From Lacticaseibacillus absianus (GTDB taxonomy: Bacteria; Bacillota; Bacilli; Lactobacillales; Lactobacillaceae): a stretch of DNA of 64,000 nucleotides. Positions 45,708 to 53,200 of this stretch are shown in pieces (the first letter of the stretch is position 1; each line of letters starts with the position of its first letter). The notes below the pieces were generated by a model. It had not been told where the DNA came from and did not search any database. It was given only the letters and a program-made list of their open reading frames with translations. The translations under genes were made by a program, and so were the position numbers. Location: the NCBI RefSeq assembly GCF_013407595.1, contig NZ_JABEKX010000002.1, positions 62,001-126,000 on the forward strand, written 5' to 3'.

Positions 45708-45736
45708 TTGGCAGTGGTCTGAACATTCTGTATAAT
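45708..45736 (+). promoter_or_regulatory. Sigma-A promoter of levR
   Basis: TTGGCA (45708-45713) and a perfect TATAAT (45731-45736) are exactly 17 bases apart, 24 bases before the levR start. Confidence 0.85.
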
Positions 45737-45760: not shown

Positions 45761-48328
45761 ATGAAGGAGGCAATGAAGCGCGTCTACCGTCAGTTGGGTA
45801 CGACTGCGAATACCGGTGGGGCCACGACACAGGAACTTGCTGATCAACTTGGGTTGTCACGGTCAGTCGTCAGCCAGTACCTGAATCGCTTGGAGGCACA
45901 GGACTGGGTGACCAAGCGTGACGGTCGCCCTGTGCGATGGCAACGCGCTGACGCGCAAGCCGATGAGGCAGATCCTTTCACACAGTTCATCGGGGTGCGG
46001 GGGAGCGTCCGCCGTGTGATCGAACAGGCCGCTGCTGCAGTAGCCTATCCACCGCATGGCTTGAACGTGCTGGTCACCGGCCATTCAGGGGTGGGCAAAA
46101 GCTACCTCGCTGCGACAATCGTCGCGCACGCACGGTATGTCCACGCGATCGTCGCGCACGCACCGTACGCTGTCTTGAATTGTGCCGATTACGCGAACAA
46201 CCCAGAACTTCTATCGAGTCTACTGTTTGGGTACGTCCGCGGCGCGTTCACTGGCGCGGATCAGGACAAAGCGGGATTGTTGACACAAGCGGACGGTGGG
46301 TATCTGTTTTTGGATGAGGTGCACCGCCTGTCCAGTGAGAACCAAGAGAAGCTGTTCTCGTTCATCGATAACGGCTACTACTACCGAATGGGTGACAACG
46401 TGACCCGGATCCAAGCAACAGTCCGATTGATCATGGCAACGACCGAAACGCCTGAGCAAGTGTTGCTTGCGACGTTTCGGCGCCGGATCCCAGTTGTCTT
46501 ACATCTGCCAGATTACGCGCAGCGCCCCGCGGATGAACGGTTAGCGTTGCTGCGGGCATTGTTCACCGCTGAGGCACACAAAATGGCGTGTTCGATCATG
46601 GTCACGCCGGCAGTGGTCTCGGCCTTGGCGCAGATCGATCACCCTGGGAACATCGGACACTTGAAAAACCTGATCCAGGTGGGGTGTGCGACGGCTTACG
46701 AGCGGCGCCAGGAGGATGGACCGTTGCGTCTGACGCTCGACCACTTTCAGTTCGATCACCTGCCAGACGTGACGGCTTACGGTGAGATGGTGATCGACCC
46801 AGCTGCACCAGTAGTCAGTGCCCCGCGTGACCCGTGGGCTGAGCAGCTGGCGCAGATCAGCGACTCGTTAGCGCAGGCAGGGGATGATCCGACACAGGAA
46901 CAGCTACGACAATGGACTAATCTGTTTCAGGCGTTGCTTGCCCGGCTCCCGCAGCACGAGCCGGAAGACGGCCTACACCTTCAACACGATGACCGGTTCA
47001 AGACATTGATCGAGCGGCGCTTTGGGCTCGCCAAGGCCGCTTACCTCGAGCCGCTGATGTTCGCACTGTATCGCCGACGCTTTGAACTTGATCCGGTGCT
47101 CACGCGGCACCTAACGCGTCGGTTGCGCCTGAAGTTGCCGCGGGCATTGCACGTGGCCAAGGAGTTCTACCGGGTGATCCAACCCTTGGATCCGGTCAGT
47201 CACCAGACCTTAGTGGTCGTCTTAACGTTGCTACTTGCGGATCATATCGATGAGCGGATCCAGTTGCGAGGATTGTTGACGGCGCATGGCGAAAGTACCG
47301 CGACGAGTATTCAGGCGGTGGTCAACACGCTTTGTGGCACGTATGTGTTCGATGCGATCGACATGCCGATCACGACTGGTGTCGATTCGATCATCAAAGA
47401 GGCGAATCGGCTGATCGACCAATCGGACACGACCAACGGCTTCATCCTAATGGTCGATATGGGGTCGTTGAGCCAACTGTTCACAGCGATCAAGCCCCAT
47501 CTAGATGGCGACTTACTGGTCGTCAACAATCTGACGACGGTAACGGCATTGGACCTCGCCCTGCGAATGCAACAGCGCTTACCGTTCAAGCAGATCGCAG
47601 AAAAGGCAGAGCAGGACTACACCATCGAGGTCCAGTACTATCAAGGGTTCTCACAGGCGACGAACATCTTGGTCTCCTGTATCTCCGGACTGGGGATCGC
47701 CGAGAAGATCCGAGAGATCATGCAACCACTGATGCCGAGCGACATCAAGGTGATCCCGCTGGACTATGCGACGCTCAAAGAGAAGTTGGTCGGTGAAGAA
47801 TGGGCTTATTTTGACCAGACGCTGTTCGTGCTGACCACGATGGATCTGACTCGGCAGGTACCGTTCGCCCACTTGAACATCTATGATCTCCTAGATGCGA
47901 CCGGGGCCTCGCAACTGTCTGAGTGGCTGAGTGCGTACCTGGATCAGGCGCACCTTAAGGCGCTGAATGCTGAATTACTACGGTTCTTCTCGATCGAGGG
48001 GATTTCGGAGCGTCTGAGCTTCCTCAACCCAGACATCGTGATCAAAGAGGTTGAAACGGCGATCATGAAATATGAGCACTATTATCACTTTGTGCTCGAT
48101 GGCAAGGTCAAGTTGAACCTCTATATGCACATCGCGCTGATGATCGAACGGTTGATGGTGCGCAAGCAGATCGAGACGCCGGTGACGATGAGCGGGCCCG
48201 AGGAAGCTGAGTTCATGCAGGTCTCCCACAGCGTTTTTCAGCCGATCGAGATGAAATACAACATTACGGTGTCGGACTATGAGCTATCGTTGATGTACGA
48301 GCTGTTCAAGCAGTTCATTGAGGCGTGA
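45761..48328 (+). CDS. levR: Sigma-54 activator with PRD and EIIA domains (LevR/ManR type)
   Basis: An 855-residue PTS-controlled activator. Residues 1-60 form a winged HTH (TTQELADQLGLSRSVVSQYL); 75-310 is the AAA+ domain with Walker A GHSGVGKS (107-114), the sigma-54-contacting GAFTGA (161-166) and Walker B YLFLDEVH (181-188). A degenerate PRD spans about 400-490, an EIIA-Man domain about 500-640 with candidate phospho-His H509 (TAHGEST), then an EIIB-like region and a second PRD at about 760-855. It should activate the -24/-12 promoter ahead of the PTS genes. Start ATG 45761 is best spaced from AGAGGAG; ATG 45752 and 45773 are alternatives. Confidence 0.93.
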   Translation: MKEAMKRVYRQLGTTANTGGATTQELADQLGLSRSVVSQYLNRLEAQDWVTKRDGRPVRWQRADAQADEADPFTQFIGVRGSVRRVIEQAAAAVAYPPHGLNVLVTGHSGVGKSYLAATIVAHARYVHAIVAHAPYAVLNCADYANNPELLSSLLFGYVRGAFTGADQDKAGLLTQADGGYLFLDEVHRLSSENQEKLFSFIDNGYYYRMGDNVTRIQATVRLIMATTETPEQVLLATFRRRIPVVLHLPDYAQRPADERLALLRALFTAEAHKMACSIMVTPAVVSALAQIDHPGNIGHLKNLIQVGCATAYERRQEDGPLRLTLDHFQFDHLPDVTAYGEMVIDPAAPVVSAPRDPWAEQLAQISDSLAQAGDDPTQEQLRQWTNLFQALLARLPQHEPEDGLHLQHDDRFKTLIERRFGLAKAAYLEPLMFALYRRRFELDPVLTRHLTRRLRLKLPRALHVAKEFYRVIQPLDPVSHQTLVVVLTLLLADHIDERIQLRGLLTAHGESTATSIQAVVNTLCGTYVFDAIDMPITTGVDSIIKEANRLIDQSDTTNGFILMVDMGSLSQLFTAIKPHLDGDLLVVNNLTTVTALDLALRMQQRLPFKQIAEKAEQDYTIEVQYYQGFSQATNILVSCISGLGIAEKIREIMQPLMPSDIKVIPLDYATLKEKLVGEEWAYFDQTLFVLTTMDLTRQVPFAHLNIYDLLDATGASQLSEWLSAYLDQAHLKALNAELLRFFSIEGISERLSFLNPDIVIKEVETAIMKYEHYYHFVLDGKVKLNLYMHIALMIERLMVRKQIETPVTMSGPEEAEFMQVSHSVFQPIEMKYNITVSDYELSLMYELFKQFIEA

Positions 48329-48353
48329 TCCGAGTGTTGAACAGCGTCAACTG

Positions 48354-48385
48354 GAAGTGTTCAATTATTGAACACTTCTTTTTTT
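48354..48385 (+). terminator. levR terminator / activator-binding palindrome
   Basis: A perfect palindrome GAAGTGTTCAA-TTA-TTGAACACTTC is followed by seven T residues, making an intrinsic terminator for levR. The same TTGAACACTT sequence recurs at 48404-48413 beside the -24 element, so the palindrome may also be the upstream activating site of LevR. Confidence 0.75.
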
Positions 48386-48412
48386 GCGGCGTTGCGGCGC
48401 GGTTTTGAACAC

Positions 48413-48429
48413 TTGGCACGAGTTTTGCT
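48413..48429 (+). promoter_or_regulatory. Sigma-54 (-24/-12) promoter of the PTS operon
   Basis: TTGGCACG-AGTT-TTGCT matches the RpoN consensus with the invariant GG (48415-48416) and GC (48427-48428) exactly ten bases apart. It lies 50 bases before the first PTS gene. Confidence 0.93.
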
Positions 48430-48478
48430 ATTAGGGAGGTGAAGGCATTGACCTGAAGTGACGAAAGGAGGGAACCGG

Positions 48479-48886
48479 ATGACTGAGATCTTGATCGCCA
48501 GTCACGGGCACATGGCTAGTGGGCTTCAGAGCTCACTAGAGATCCTGACTGGCATGGGCGCACGCGTCCAAGTGATCGATGCCTACGTGGATGATTCGGA
48601 TTACACGGCGCAGATCGCTGCGTTCATTGCCACGGCGAAGCGACCAGCCGTGATCTTCACCGATCTTAAGGGTGGGAGTGTGAATCAAAAAGTCGTTTTG
48701 GCTGCGGCAGGACACCCCGACGTGTTCGTGGTGTCACAGATGAACCTTGCAATTATTCTGGCGGTGTTATTGGATGCCGAACCATTGTCTGCTGGGCACT
48801 TGGACGACCTGATCGTCCAGAGTCAAGTTGAACGCATCACGTTGACAGACGCACCCGCTGATTCGGAAGACAGCTTTTTGAGCTAA
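48479..48886 (+). CDS. PTS mannose-family EIIA component
   Basis: A 135-residue cytoplasmic EIIA. The phosphorylated histidine is H9 in IASHGHMASGL, and FTDLKGGSVNQKV is the second conserved motif. It accepts phosphate from HPr and hands it to EIIB. EIIA and EIIB are separate proteins here, not a fused EIIAB as in ManX. ATG 48479 follows AAAGGAGGG; it is the first gene after the sigma-54 promoter. Confidence 0.94.
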   Translation: MTEILIASHGHMASGLQSSLEILTGMGARVQVIDAYVDDSDYTAQIAAFIATAKRPAVIFTDLKGGSVNQKVVLAAAGHPDVFVVSQMNLAIILAVLLDAEPLSAGHLDDLIVQSQVERITLTDAPADSEDSFLS

Positions 48887-48898
48887 GGAGGAAATGAT

Positions 48899-49390
48899 AT
48901 GATCGCACAATTACGCGTCGATGATCGATTGATCCACGGGCAAGTCGCTTTGGTCTGGACCAAGGAGCTTGATACACCGGGGATCATTGTTGCCAACGAT
49001 AACGCGGCGGCCAATGAGATGGTCCAGATGACCCTGAAGATGGCGACCCCAACGGGCAAAAAACTTTTGATCCGCTCGGTTGCGGACGCCATCACAGTAT
49101 TCAATAACCCTAAGGCGAGCAACATGCGCATTTTTGCACTGACGAATAGTGTGGCTGATGCGCTCAAGATCGCCCAAGCGGTACCCGGAATCGCAGGGAT
49201 CAACGTTGCCAATGTGGGGCGCTTTGCCGAAAACGCGAAGGAAGCGACTCAGCTGTCTGCAACACTGATGTTGACAGCGTCCGAGCTGGCCGCACTGAAG
49301 CAGTTGGCCACACTGGATGTCCCTGTGTTCAATCAAGTTGTGCCGAGTAACGCCAAGACGCCGATCAGCACGTTGCTGAAGGGCCACTAA
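48899..49390 (+). CDS. PTS mannose-family EIIB component
   Basis: A 163-residue EIIB with phospho-histidine H13 in RVDDRLIHGQV, a family hallmark. It phosphorylates the sugar during transport by EIIC/EIID. The sugar is unknown; mannose/glucose, fructose or sorbose-type substrates are possible. AAGGAGGAAATGAT precedes the ATG. Confidence 0.94.
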   Translation: MIAQLRVDDRLIHGQVALVWTKELDTPGIIVANDNAAANEMVQMTLKMATPTGKKLLIRSVADAITVFNNPKASNMRIFALTNSVADALKIAQAVPGIAGINVANVGRFAENAKEATQLSATLMLTASELAALKQLATLDVPVFNQVVPSNAKTPISTLLKGH

Positions 49391-49412
49391 CCTAATCAAG
49401 GAGGAATGAACG

Positions 49413-50246
49413 ATGTTAAATACCGCATTGTTAGCCGCATTATGCGTGTTCGTCTGCTTCGGCGGCAACTGGCTGTGGGGTCAGACGATGATCGAACGCC
49501 CACTGGTCGTTGGCTTGGTCGCTGGGTTGGTTTTCGGGGACGTTCGAACTGGGATCATGATGGGGGCATCGCTTGAGGCGATCTTCATGGGTGCTGTCGA
49601 TATTGGTGGTGCGTTGTCCGCGGAGCCGGTCACCGCGACCGTTTTGGCGGTGACTTTTGCGACCACGCTGGATGTGAACTTGAAGGCCGCTTTGGCCCTG
49701 GCGGTGCCGATCGGGGTGTTCGCCGCCTTTATCTCAATGTTTCTGAAGAACGTGGTCATGAATATTTTTGCGCCTGTCGTTGATAAAGTGGCCGCGAACA
49801 ACGATCCTAAGGGGCTAGTTCGCTTACACTTTGGCATGTGGTTCCTGAACTATTTCGTCTTCTCTCTCGTCACGTTCTTCTCAGTCCTTGCAGGGGCCAA
49901 GCCAGTCCAGCAATTGGTCGACCATATCCCGGCGAACCTGATGGCGGGGCTGTCAGCGACCGGTGGCCTGTTGCCGGCGGTCGGGTTTGCGATCTTAATG
50001 CGGATGCTGTGGAGCAAACAGCTGTCACCATACTACTTCCTGGGCTTCGTCTTGGCCGCGTATATGAAGCTACCTTCTGTCGCAGTCGCTGCCGTCGGGC
50101 TCATCATCGTGGCGCTACAGTGGATGCGGGATAAGCAACTGATGGACCTAGAGAACAAACAAAAGGCGCTGACAACGACTGGTGTCCACACAACGGCTGA
50201 CGCGCCGAACGACGCGGCGCAGGAAGAGGAGGACTTTTTCTCATGA
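49413..50246 (+). CDS. PTS mannose-family EIIC component
   Basis: A 277-residue membrane permease subunit with about eight hydrophobic segments; the EIIC signature GxxxGxxFGDxxTGixxGasLEaifMG is seen as GLVFGDVRTGIMMGASLEAI. The C-terminus is charged and ends in EEEDFFS. It forms the sugar channel with EIID, whose gene overlaps by four bases. Confidence 0.94.
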   Translation: MLNTALLAALCVFVCFGGNWLWGQTMIERPLVVGLVAGLVFGDVRTGIMMGASLEAIFMGAVDIGGALSAEPVTATVLAVTFATTLDVNLKAALALAVPIGVFAAFISMFLKNVVMNIFAPVVDKVAANNDPKGLVRLHFGMWFLNYFVFSLVTFFSVLAGAKPVQQLVDHIPANLMAGLSATGGLLPAVGFAILMRMLWSKQLSPYYFLGFVLAAYMKLPSVAVAAVGLIIVALQWMRDKQLMDLENKQKALTTTGVHTTADAPNDAAQEEEDFFS

Positions 50247-51070
50247 AGATGACTAAGAATGTTTCACCCGAAGATAAAAAAATGCTCAACAGCATCTTCT
50301 GGCGCTCCTTCACCGTCTTCGCCAGTCGTGCAGGGGCGACCAAGACGCATGCGCCTGGCTTCATGTACTCGATCATGCCGGCGCTGGATCGTTACTATAA
50401 GGACGATCCTGAAGGCCACCGGCAGGCGATGCAGCGGCACACGACATGGTACAACATCACCCAAAACGTGGGGACTTTCGTCATGGGACTGGTCGCCTCG
50501 ATGGAGAAGAAGAACGCCGCTGATCCGAACTTCGACTCTGACTCAACGGTTGCCTTGAAGACGTCACTGATGGGCCCACTGTCTGGGATCGGCGATTCGA
50601 TCTTCTGGGGGGTCTTGCGGGTCATTGCCGCGGGCATCGGGATCAGCCTCGCCAGTCAGGGGTCGATCTTCGGGCCGCTACTGTTCTTGGTGATCTACAA
50701 TGTTCCGTCGATCCTGACGCGTTACTACCTGACGTACATGGGGTTCACGCTGGGGGACACCTTCATCCAAGATATGTATCGGTCCGGGAGTATGAAGTTG
50801 CTCAACAAGTCGGCCTCGACGCTTGGCCTAATGATGATCGGGTGCATGACCGCAACGATGGTCACCTTCCAATCGAAGCTGGCGATCCCGATCAAAGGCG
50901 GCAAGCCGATCCTGATCCAGACCTACCTCGATCAGCTCTGGCAAGGATTAGTGCCGCTGGTGGTGACGTTGGTCTGCTACTGGCTTCTGTCTAAGAAAGT
51001 CAACGTCAACTGGATCCTGCTGGGTGTCTTGGCCTTGGCGATCGTCCTCGGGTTGCTGGGTGTGGTCTGA
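50243..51070 (+). CDS. PTS mannose-family EIID component
   Basis: A 275-residue EIID: FTVFASRAGATKTHAPGFMYSI-like N-terminal helix region, DRYYKDDPEGHRQAMQRHTT and MGPLSGIGDSIFWGVLRVIA are hallmark segments; three or four helices lie at the C-terminus. It completes the PTS complex. Its stop is directly followed by the GTG of the mgtC-like gene with no gap. Confidence 0.94.
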   Translation: MKMTKNVSPEDKKMLNSIFWRSFTVFASRAGATKTHAPGFMYSIMPALDRYYKDDPEGHRQAMQRHTTWYNITQNVGTFVMGLVASMEKKNAADPNFDSDSTVALKTSLMGPLSGIGDSIFWGVLRVIAAGIGISLASQGSIFGPLLFLVIYNVPSILTRYYLTYMGFTLGDTFIQDMYRSGSMKLLNKSASTLGLMMIGCMTATMVTFQSKLAIPIKGGKPILIQTYLDQLWQGLVPLVVTLVCYWLLSKKVNVNWILLGVLALAIVLGLLGVV

Positions 51071-51772
51071 GTGTTCGCACTGACATTACGGCAGATTATC
51101 GTTCGGCTGGTCCTCGCCGTTTTGATGGCGGGGGTGATCGGCTATGACCGTGAGCACAAGAACCGTCCAGCGGGGATCAAGACGCATGTGCTGGTCTGCG
51201 TTGGGGCGTGTATCATCGCGCTGATCCAAAAAGAGATCGGATTCGATGCGCTGAATATCGCGTTGACGTACCCGAAACTAGCAGGGGTGGTTCGTGCCGA
51301 TGACGCGCGCCTGATCGCACAGGTCGTCTCTGGCATCGGGTTCCTTGGTGCGGGTACGATCATCGTGCAGCATCGGACGATCCGGGGCTTGACCACGGCT
51401 GCGAGCCTATGGGCGGTCGCCGGGATCGGTCTGGCCGTCGGAATGGGGGATTATATGATCGCAGTCGTCAGTGCCATCGTGGTGATGCTCGTCTTGGTTT
51501 TTCTTAAAAAAATGATCCGGGTCAACCCGATGAAGAAGATCGAGATCCAATACCGTCATAAACTGGAGACCAAAGAATTCATTCAGGCATACTTCGATGC
51601 GCATCACATCGCGGTGATCGACGTGAATTTCAGAGTGACGCAAACAGGTGCGGCGCCGATCTATGTTAATATATACGAAATCGAGATCCCACGGACGACG
51701 AACTACGCGGATGTGATCGAAGACATCTCGATGAATCAGAATATCATGAAGATTCAGACAGTCAGTCTATGA
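51071..51772 (+). CDS. MgtC/SapB family membrane protein
   Basis: A 233-residue protein with an N-terminal membrane domain of five helices carrying MgtC signatures (GYDREHKNRPAGIKTHVLVC, VVSGIGFLGAGTIIVQHRTI, RGLTTAASLWAVAGIGLAVG) and a C-terminal ACT-like cytoplasmic domain (IEIQYRHKLETKEFIQAYFD). MgtC proteins help at low Mg2+ or acid pH, by modulating ATP synthase or Mg2+ balance. It starts with GTG immediately after the EIID stop, so it belongs to the PTS operon, an unusual association. Confidence 0.9.
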   Translation: MFALTLRQIIVRLVLAVLMAGVIGYDREHKNRPAGIKTHVLVCVGACIIALIQKEIGFDALNIALTYPKLAGVVRADDARLIAQVVSGIGFLGAGTIIVQHRTIRGLTTAASLWAVAGIGLAVGMGDYMIAVVSAIVVMLVLVFLKKMIRVNPMKKIEIQYRHKLETKEFIQAYFDAHHIAVIDVNFRVTQTGAAPIYVNIYEIEIPRTTNYADVIEDISMNQNIMKIQTVSL

Positions 51773-51795
51773 TCGCGATAGGGAGGCAGGGGCCG

Positions 51796-53079
51796 ATGGC
51801 ACAGACGCAGCGGATGGTTCAACACCCAATGCTTGAGGTGACCACTCGGCTCTTTTTGTCGCCGGTTATGCGTCAGCGGCTGACAGTGCTGCAGTTTGGT
51901 GCCGACCAGCTGACCGCACATCTACAGGCGGTGGCTGAGGCCAATCCATTCGTACGACTGCGGGTAGCATCACCGGTCGCGCACGGCGCGGCGGTGGACT
52001 GGGTGCCCGACGAGACCACCGAAACGTTGACGGCTCACTTGTTGACTCAGGCGCGGCTGACTCGTGTGCCAGCACGGCTACGTCCGGCACTGACCGCTTT
52101 GTGTCTAGCTGTCGATGACGATGGCTATCTCCGTTCACCGTTAACGCTGCTCGCGGCGACCTACCAGCTGCCAGAGGCGCAGTTGGCCGAGGTACTGCCG
52201 GTGCTGCAGGCGTTCGACCCTGTCGGGGTCGGCGCGCCGGATCTGACCGCGTGCCTGCTGCGCCAGGCGGCGCAACCTGGGTTCGATCCGGTGGCGCAGG
52301 CATTGTTGCGTCACCAGCAGCTGCCCCTGCTAGCAACCCCTGAGCGGTGGGCGAGCCTACCGTATACAGCCACGCAGCTGACGAATGCCTTGGCGGCGAT
52401 CCGGCGTCTGGACCCTGCGCCGGGGCATCAGTACGCGCGCGCCGCGTCGATTCAGTACTTGACGCCGGATTTTGTGGCACAGTCAGTGGCTGGGCGCACC
52501 GTTGTTCAGGTGGCGACAGACGCTTTGCCGCAGTTGGGGTTCGATCAGCGCTACTATGACCAGTTAACGGCTGTGGCGGATGAACCGACTAAGGTGTATT
52601 TGCACGCACAACGGCAGCAATACGAGCAGCTCACCGGCGGCTTGGAACGCCGCAAGACGACGTTGACGTTGATCGGTATGTACCTCACAGATCATCAGCA
52701 GGCGTACTTGAGTGCGCCGCAGACCCATGCGGTTCAGCCACTGACGCTCAGCGACTGTGCGGCGGCGCTCGGTTTGGCAGTCAGCACGATCAGTCGAGCG
52801 GTGCGGGATAAGTACCTTCTGCTCGGTGGCCGCCTGCTTTCCGTTCGGCACTTGTTCGTGCAGGCGGTCCGCCAGGAGTGGTCGCCTGCGCGCGTGCAGC
52901 AGCAGATCGCGGCCTTGATCGCAGGCGAATCTCCCGAGGCGCCGCTCAGCGACGAACTGTTGACCCAGCGCCTCGAGGCGATAGGGGTCACGCTATCTCG
53001 GCGAACCGTGGCGAAATATCGCGCGCTGGCGGGGTTACCTAACGCATTCCAACGCAAAGCAATGCACCGTCAACCGTAA
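51796..53079 (+). CDS. rpoN: RNA polymerase sigma-54 factor
   Basis: A 427-residue sigma-54. Region I is recognisable (TTRLFLSPVMRQRLTVLQFG, LQAVAEANPFVRL), the core-binding domain follows (AFDPVGVGAPDLTACLLRQA), and the C-terminal HTH and RpoN box (LSRRTVAKYRALAGLP) recognise the -24 element. Shorter and more divergent than proteobacterial RpoN, as usual in Firmicutes. I start at ATG 51796 after GGGAGGCAGG; ATG 51769 overlaps the mgtC stop but has no ribosome site. It appears to be the last gene of the sigma-54-dependent operon. Confidence 0.93.
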   Translation: MAQTQRMVQHPMLEVTTRLFLSPVMRQRLTVLQFGADQLTAHLQAVAEANPFVRLRVASPVAHGAAVDWVPDETTETLTAHLLTQARLTRVPARLRPALTALCLAVDDDGYLRSPLTLLAATYQLPEAQLAEVLPVLQAFDPVGVGAPDLTACLLRQAAQPGFDPVAQALLRHQQLPLLATPERWASLPYTATQLTNALAAIRRLDPAPGHQYARAASIQYLTPDFVAQSVAGRTVVQVATDALPQLGFDQRYYDQLTAVADEPTKVYLHAQRQQYEQLTGGLERRKTTLTLIGMYLTDHQQAYLSAPQTHAVQPLTLSDCAAALGLAVSTISRAVRDKYLLLGGRLLSVRHLFVQAVRQEWSPARVQQQIAALIAGESPEAPLSDELLTQRLEAIGVTLSRRTVAKYRALAGLPNAFQRKAMHRQP

Positions 53080-53100
53080 TCGAGGCTGAGCATTACCAGG

Positions 53101-53130
53101 TGGCGCTCCCTAGTAGGGGGGCGCCATTTT
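53101..53130 (+). terminator. Terminator after rpoN
   Basis: TGGCGCTCCC pairs with GGGGGCGCCA (one G-U) around loop TAGTA, followed by TTTT. Confidence 0.8.
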
Positions 53131-53200
53131 GGGTGGAGTGACGCCGGGCTTTTTTTGCCCTCACAGCTTACTTTTGTTCAGCGTTCGCGTGCGTGCATGG

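Follow-up and report, generated by a model that had tools for sequence, protein, structure and literature searches.

A mannose-family phosphotransferase system (PTS) operon of Lacticaseibacillus absianus ends with rpoN, the only gene for sigma-54 found in the genome, and probably constitutes a self-contained sigma-54 cassette with positive feedback through its -24/-12 promoter. The operon lies in a stretch of 64,000 nucleotides, bases 62001-126000 of contig C4 in a genome of 2.84 Mb and 11 contigs (hereafter, the window), where levR, the genes for EIIA, EIIB, EIIC and EIID, an mgtC-like gene and rpoN follow each other in this order, all on the + strand. An earlier sequence-only reading of the window had noticed that rpoN appears to end this sigma-54-dependent operon, and had suggested that sigma-54 might drive its own synthesis here; to judge from the sequences compared below, the observation on the position of rpoN was right and understated, as self-contained sigma-54 sugar cassettes of this kind recur.

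The first gene, levR (45761..48328, 855 aa), encodes a PRD-type sigma-54 activator with an HTH, an AAA domain (PF00158) containing the GAFTGA motif, and PRD. It is followed by EIIA (48479..48886; PF03610, EIIA-man), EIIB (48899..49390; PF03830, PTSIIB_sorb), EIIC (49413..50246; PF03609, EII-Sor), EIID (50243..51070; PF03613, EIID-AGA) and a gene for an MgtC/SapB-family membrane protein (51071..51772; PF02308, MgtC). The intergenic gaps from EIIA to mgtC are 12, 22, -4 and 0 bases, and 23 bases separate mgtC from rpoN (51796..53079) if the latter starts at 51796. The start at 51769 given by the list of open reading frames (ORFs) is less likely; an AGGGAGG motif lies about 10 bases 5' of the ATG at 51796. 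The RpoN protein shows the features of a functional sigma-54, namely AID, core-binding (CBD) and DNA-binding (DBD) domains and the RpoN box (SRRTVAKYR), and scores 259.5 bits against NCBIfam TIGR02395, below the cut-off of 277.35. The nearest NCBIfam models of the other proteins, all below cut-off, were DagR for LevR, and galactosamine, mannose or sorbose types for the PTS proteins. The G+C content of rpoN (63.2%) is higher than that of the remaining cassette genes (53.4-56.4%).

As in LevR-type PTS operons, the mannose-family EII genes are preceded by a -24/-12 promoter, TGGCACGAGTTTTGC (48414..48428, + strand), which is a perfect match; TGGCACGAGTTTTGCT (48414-48429) is the sole match to TGGCAYRNNNNTTGCW in the window, where 0.08 would be expected by chance, and at least one such match occurred in 8 of 100 shuffles of the window. 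A sigma-A-like promoter (TTGGCA-17-TATAAT; 45708..45736, + strand), matching 11 of 12 consensus positions, precedes levR. A 12-bp inverted repeat with seven T behind it (48353..48379; -14.4 kcal/mol, z -6.2) separates levR from the -24/-12 site. It was not noted in the sequence-only reading and is the probable terminator of levR; if levR transcripts end there, they would not easily supply rpoN. This palindrome, whose half-site is AGTGTTyAA, is also found 5' of the promoter in the four sister operons described below (L045, L154, L152 and L153), and because of this conservation it may also be a LevR binding site. No terminator-like site was found between 48414 and 51796, and a strong hairpin comes after rpoN (53100..53130, + strand, then TTTT; -30.1 kcal/mol over 53090-53140, z -6.2). 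Thus, by sequence, rpoN is part of a unit started at a -24/-12 promoter with no terminator between, as is expected of an autoregulated rpoN. The only + strand sigma-A-like site listed shortly 5' of rpoN is a weak one inside mgtC (51720..51747; 9 of 12 positions, at chance level, p 0.23), likewise absent from the sequence-only reading. Profile matches and promoter scans therefore bore out the gene order and domains, the exact -24/-12 promoter, the sigma-A promoter of levR and the lack of a terminator from that promoter to rpoN that had been claimed, while neither of the two observations named as fatal to the feedback, a strong sigma-A promoter before rpoN or a second rpoN, was made: searches of the draft genome (99.99% complete) with PF04552 and with the RpoN protein each returned one copy.

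In the mechanism suggested by this layout, LevR would be made from its own sigma-A promoter, insulated by the terminator. Activators of the LevR type sense sugar through PTS phosphorylation of their PRD/EII domains, and the present LevR would do the same; once active, it would open the single -24/-12 promoter together with sigma-54 RNA polymerase. The transcript would encode the mannose-family PTS, the MgtC-like protein and, last, sigma-54, and induction would raise the level of the very sigma factor needed for induction, closing a positive feedback loop, which would have to be primed by low basal sigma-54 (from leak or from a weak internal promoter). The reading best supported by the data, and one that we regard as likely, is that most rpoN expression comes from the operon's own sigma-54 promoter.

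Operons of this type (levR-EIIABCD-mgtC-rpoN), each having a perfect -24/-12 site in the corresponding position before EIIA, were found in three genera: in the window and L045 (genome G022, same genus), in L154 (G039, genus g11), and in L152 (G194) and L153 (G065), both from genus g37. The LevR proteins of L045, L152 and L153 have the same length as that of the window, while levR of L154 is split into two ORFs. The two close relatives L152 and L153 have common flanks; the four operon locations otherwise share only generic ABC ATPase matches in their flanks (up to 4 ORFs on the left and 6 on the right). Since the flanks outside levR..rpoN are unrelated, levR to rpoN is the conserved unit, which, along with the other LevR-PTS units with embedded rpoN discussed below, lends support to the notion of a portable, self-contained regulon put forward in the sequence-only reading, and answers its call for a comparison of gene order in relatives. 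When the flanking TetR (left) and ABC transporter (right) proteins were sought in 30 genomes of the genus, no precise empty site was shown; in G006, the closest genome by RpoB, the best flank matches are on separate contigs, and a weaker TetR match (38%) lies about 12 kb from the transporter. Identities among the five operons are 82-99% for EIID, 78-95% for EIIC, 52-88% for LevR and 31-68% for RpoN, which is the fastest-diverging protein of the operon. The MgtC/SapB-family protein (51071-51772 in the window) is never missing from this sugar operon, being present in five out of five operons of this type across the three genera. When contigs were searched with the window RpoN, a single distant match turned up, from a gammaproteobacterial metagenome-assembled genome.

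A wider survey covered 118 rpoN loci, i.e. the window, 17 further loci of its genus and 100 from the family, the latter drawn from a sample of 301 genomes (G264:C111, G279:C141 and 11 places under the cut-off were left out, and four own-genus places were already included). Two loci, L155 and L156, were dropped for want of a usable RpoN ORF. The remaining 116 fall into 57 loci beside cggR-gap (6 genera), 36 in PTS context (10 genera), defined by the presence of an EII or LevR match anywhere in the sequence retrieved (up to 20 kb), and 23 others, among them 5 with a shortened RpoN. In the order as a whole, PF04552 matches occurred in 200 of 295 genomes, and a control search gave none for Lactococcus lactis. 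Walking from rpoN upstream through same-strand genes, a -24/-12 site was met in 21 of the 36 PTS-context loci (9 genera), in 1 of the 57 cggR-linked loci and in none of the 23 others; decoy motifs with the spacing altered by -3 to +3 were met in 0, 0, 1, 0, 0 and 0 of the 36. A terminator-like site intervenes in L138, L144 and L148, leaving 18 of the 21 (8 genera). Between site and rpoN there are 0-6 same-strand genes, and the gap from rpoN to the preceding gene is at most 43 bp in 14 of the 21. The intervening genes vary: EIIA alone in L133 and L140, SIS and HAD proteins besides EIIABCD in L051, and none in L135 and L050, where 49 and 70 bp, respectively, separate the site from rpoN; in L049, one end of the unit is formed by a GH88-type glycosidase (27.7 bits, cut-off 26.6). 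In L138, L142, L144 and L151, rpoN precedes levR. Linkage of rpoN to LevR-PTS genes is therefore common, and a predicted sigma-54-driven rpoN is its commonest form, not the sole one. Eight hand-picked loci from other families, each covered for about 5 kb upstream, had no intergenic -24/-12 site before rpoN, and none of their rpoN genes follows mannose-family PTS genes; the lone -24/-12 match is inside a gene (L258), the gene before rpoN in L253 encodes a glucose-type PTS EIIBC, and a piece resembling levR comes after rpoN in L259.

Two further observations on these loci may be recorded. In L135 (8945-8985), two perfect -24/-12 sites, facing away from one another, lie between rpoN and a divergent gene of 265 aa. 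In the cassettes of L054 (G015), L058 (G003) and L061 (G026), rpoN and/or levR are split into several ORFs, as if decaying, although assembly errors may also be the reason.

If this sigma-54 were an ordinary chromosomal factor serving several operons, the position of its gene in the operon would be incidental. Sigma-54 usually has several targets, and six other EIID genes are present in the genome; however, the genome-wide data make this explanation very improbable. The exact pattern TGGCACN5TTGC, whose other occurrences the sequence-only reading had proposed to search for, is found seven times in the genome, and by our ORF calls only the site in the window is intergenic and points at a gene start. 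Only the exact pattern was informative for further targets: sites with up to one mismatch numbered 237, against 297 in a reversed control, and real sites could hide among them. Around the six other EIID genes, no intergenic -24/-12 site was seen in flanks of 1.5 kb, beyond which some of their promoters lie. As for other activators, PF00158 matched LevR with 136 bits and four further AAA proteins weakly (34-41 bits); GAFTGA was absent from the three of these four that were read.

A more serious, though still rather unlikely, alternative is that units carrying rpoN have spread by co-transfer without any feedback, rpoN being expressed constitutively from a weak internal promoter; rpoN would then be part of the operon because, in genomes with no other copy, LevR operons cannot work unless they bring sigma-54 along. 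Adjacency of rpoN could be explained by co-transfer alone, and several observations weigh either on this side or, more generally, against the preferred reading. The linkage of rpoN, LevR and PTS comes in several arrangements: in L052 and L047, rpoN belongs to the cassette and yet lies upstream of the -24/-12 site, and in L114 and L118 it instead follows levR. For 15 of the 36 PTS-context loci no site was found upstream of rpoN; contig ends, broken genes and antisense ORFs breaking the walk account for some of these but not for all (L046 and L058, for example, were scored as negative due to an antisense ORF, though a -24/-12 site precedes an EIIA gene adjoining rpoN). The identities of RpoN and LevR were uncorrelated over 22 cassettes (Spearman 0.04), and joint travel of the parts is thus not general. 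Moreover, the rpoN genes linked to cggR have no better sigma-A promoter than those of cassettes. The internal site at 51720-51747 could serve as the weak promoter, but its score is no better than chance; more generally, a sigma-A promoter before rpoN proved uninformative as a discriminator, the best scores being near those of shuffles for cassette and cggR-linked genes alike. A score of at least 11 was reached before just 3 of 55 cggR-linked rpoN genes (two loci with too little upstream sequence were omitted), and the sigma-A scan is therefore weak evidence. Against co-transfer without feedback speak the commonest arrangement, in which rpoN is behind the -24/-12 site and often close to the gene before it, and the two rpoN genes that have such a site directly in front of them. 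Expression through the -24/-12 promoter remains our preferred reading.

The history of the cassettes was examined with a tree of 77 RpoN proteins out of the 116 loci (at most four cggR loci per genus, ORFs of at least 325 aa) and a RpoB tree of 29 genomes (of the 30 genomes intended, G023 gave no match). The five RpoN proteins of the present operon type, together with that of L147 (g37), form one group (support 100/98) spanning three genera, while the 21 sampled cggR-linked RpoN form a separate one (93/89). The 11 full-length RpoN rows of the window's own genus require five changes on the tree, and the approximately unbiased (AU) test rejects their being one clade (p 2.7e-69), a value to be taken with caution because several rows have long branches. 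By RpoB, the ten genomes of the genus form one group (99/97), in which the sister of the window genome (G000) is G006, with 97.5% RpoB identity; yet the cassette of G006 is a different one, its RpoN sharing 29% identity with that of the window. Members of one genus thus hold cassettes of different descent. As would be expected of mobile cassettes, the same unit occurs at unrelated places and its gene tree conflicts with the species tree; horizontal exchange is the simplest reading, although loss from a multi-copy ancestor may be the cause instead. Of the 13 genomes of the genus with rpoN of full-length type, 12 have a LevR match covering the AAA region (E 1e-40 or better), compared with none of the 17 that lack such an rpoN; the exception is G001, where the cassette is at a contig end. 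Two other possible signs of transfer were discarded. Joint travel of further parts was not consistently indicated, the correlations over the 22 cassettes being -0.20 for RpoN-EIID and 0.48 for EIID-LevR (pairs not independent), and composition did not mark recent transfer, since cassette G+C follows that of the host (32.5-57.8%).

Ratios of non-synonymous to synonymous substitutions (dN/dS) of 0.155 (L152-L153), 0.064 (L114-L118) and 0.023 (L048-L049) indicate purifying selection on cassette RpoN; a fourth pair showed too few changes. EIID has a dN/dS of 0.009, against 0.155 for RpoN, and in G194 and G065, whose RpoB are nearly identical, the RpoN proteins are 68% identical. However, relaxed constraint on cassette RpoN is not supported as a firm claim, the cassette values falling inside the range of cggR-linked RpoN (median 0.049, 0.012-0.176; 38 within-genus pairs); the latter also have a mean identity of 56% where Gap is 90-95% identical (250 random pairs, 56 loci). 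It is conceivable that each cassette has a private sigma-54 which, serving about one promoter, can drift freely and evolve in concert with the LevR and the promoter of its cassette. This idea is doubtful, and was made slightly less likely by the cggR-linked RpoN, because these diverge fast too, with similar dN/dS. If it were true, bacteria could keep or exchange sugar switches that are insulated and bistable, and a genus could re-acquire sigma-54 repeatedly within sugar operons.

Shortened relatives of these proteins were also noted. In 5 of the 30 genomes of the genus, a RpoN-like protein (L055:10066-11145; L056:10038-11102; L057:10035-11102; L060:13879-14946; L059:9067-10062, - strand) has the core-binding domain, with no AID match and no RpoN box. 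The five form one clade (100/99) with 59-84% identity and appear to be under selection (L056-L059, dN 0.13, dS 1.6). In G008, G014 and G021, no rpoN besides the gene for the shortened protein was seen, nor any match to LevR across its AAA region; the protein is perhaps a retired sigma-54 still binding RNA polymerase. Three LevR-like proteins (G016:C1:351068-352306; G008:C17:12226-13449; G025:C22:4921-6159) match the window LevR over its C-terminal half only (about 451-853). Two of them are in genomes without full-length rpoN, and they are perhaps sigma-54-independent relatives.

In the usual view, sigma-54 is a fixed factor of the chromosome whose targets are scattered. In the present case, it resembles an accessory part of a sugar cassette, with sensor, activator, sigma factor and target kept together. 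This view would explain the patchy presence of sigma-54 in the genus, predicts switch-like induction by sugar, and suggests that the cassette could be a natural compact expression module.

Part of this picture has precedents. The esu operon of L. casei, reportedly the subject of work by Yebra in 2004, may be a related case. The accessible text of PMC3162934 deals with the class of LevR-like activators and places sigma-54 in L. plantarum and P. pentosaceus and, among L. casei, only in strain BL23; that of PMC8262876 describes MptR/RpoN of E. faecalis. In some L. rhamnosus strains, rpoN and a PRD/'NtrC' regulator are accessory, and the strain-specific genes also include mannose PTS components (PMC3954586, PMC7513527); the accessible parts of these accounts describe no operon and no -24/-12 promoter. 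No description of the recurring embedding of rpoN in LevR-PTS operons was found in the open literature, subscription journals being mostly outside the search. Autoregulated rpoN and LevR-PTS operons are each already known.

The cggR-linked rpoN of the same family (57 of the 116 loci) encode the same family of sigma factor, but adjoin a glycolytic operon, almost always lack an upstream -24/-12 site and have their own RpoN group. The lev operon of B. subtilis and other LevR-controlled PTS operons have in common with the present one the PRD/AAA activator, the -24/-12 promoter and EIIABCD; the difference is that here rpoN is inside the operon. According to the accessible part of PMC12316311, which cites Geobacter and Dokdonia, the genes transcribed with sigma-54 are enriched for rpoN in several classes, Bacilli among them, which implies autoregulation. 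The operon of the window would share with those genes a sigma-54 driving its own gene, whereas its loop would involve a single activator of sugar type and a single operon, in a unit that recurs in the form of separate catabolic cassettes.

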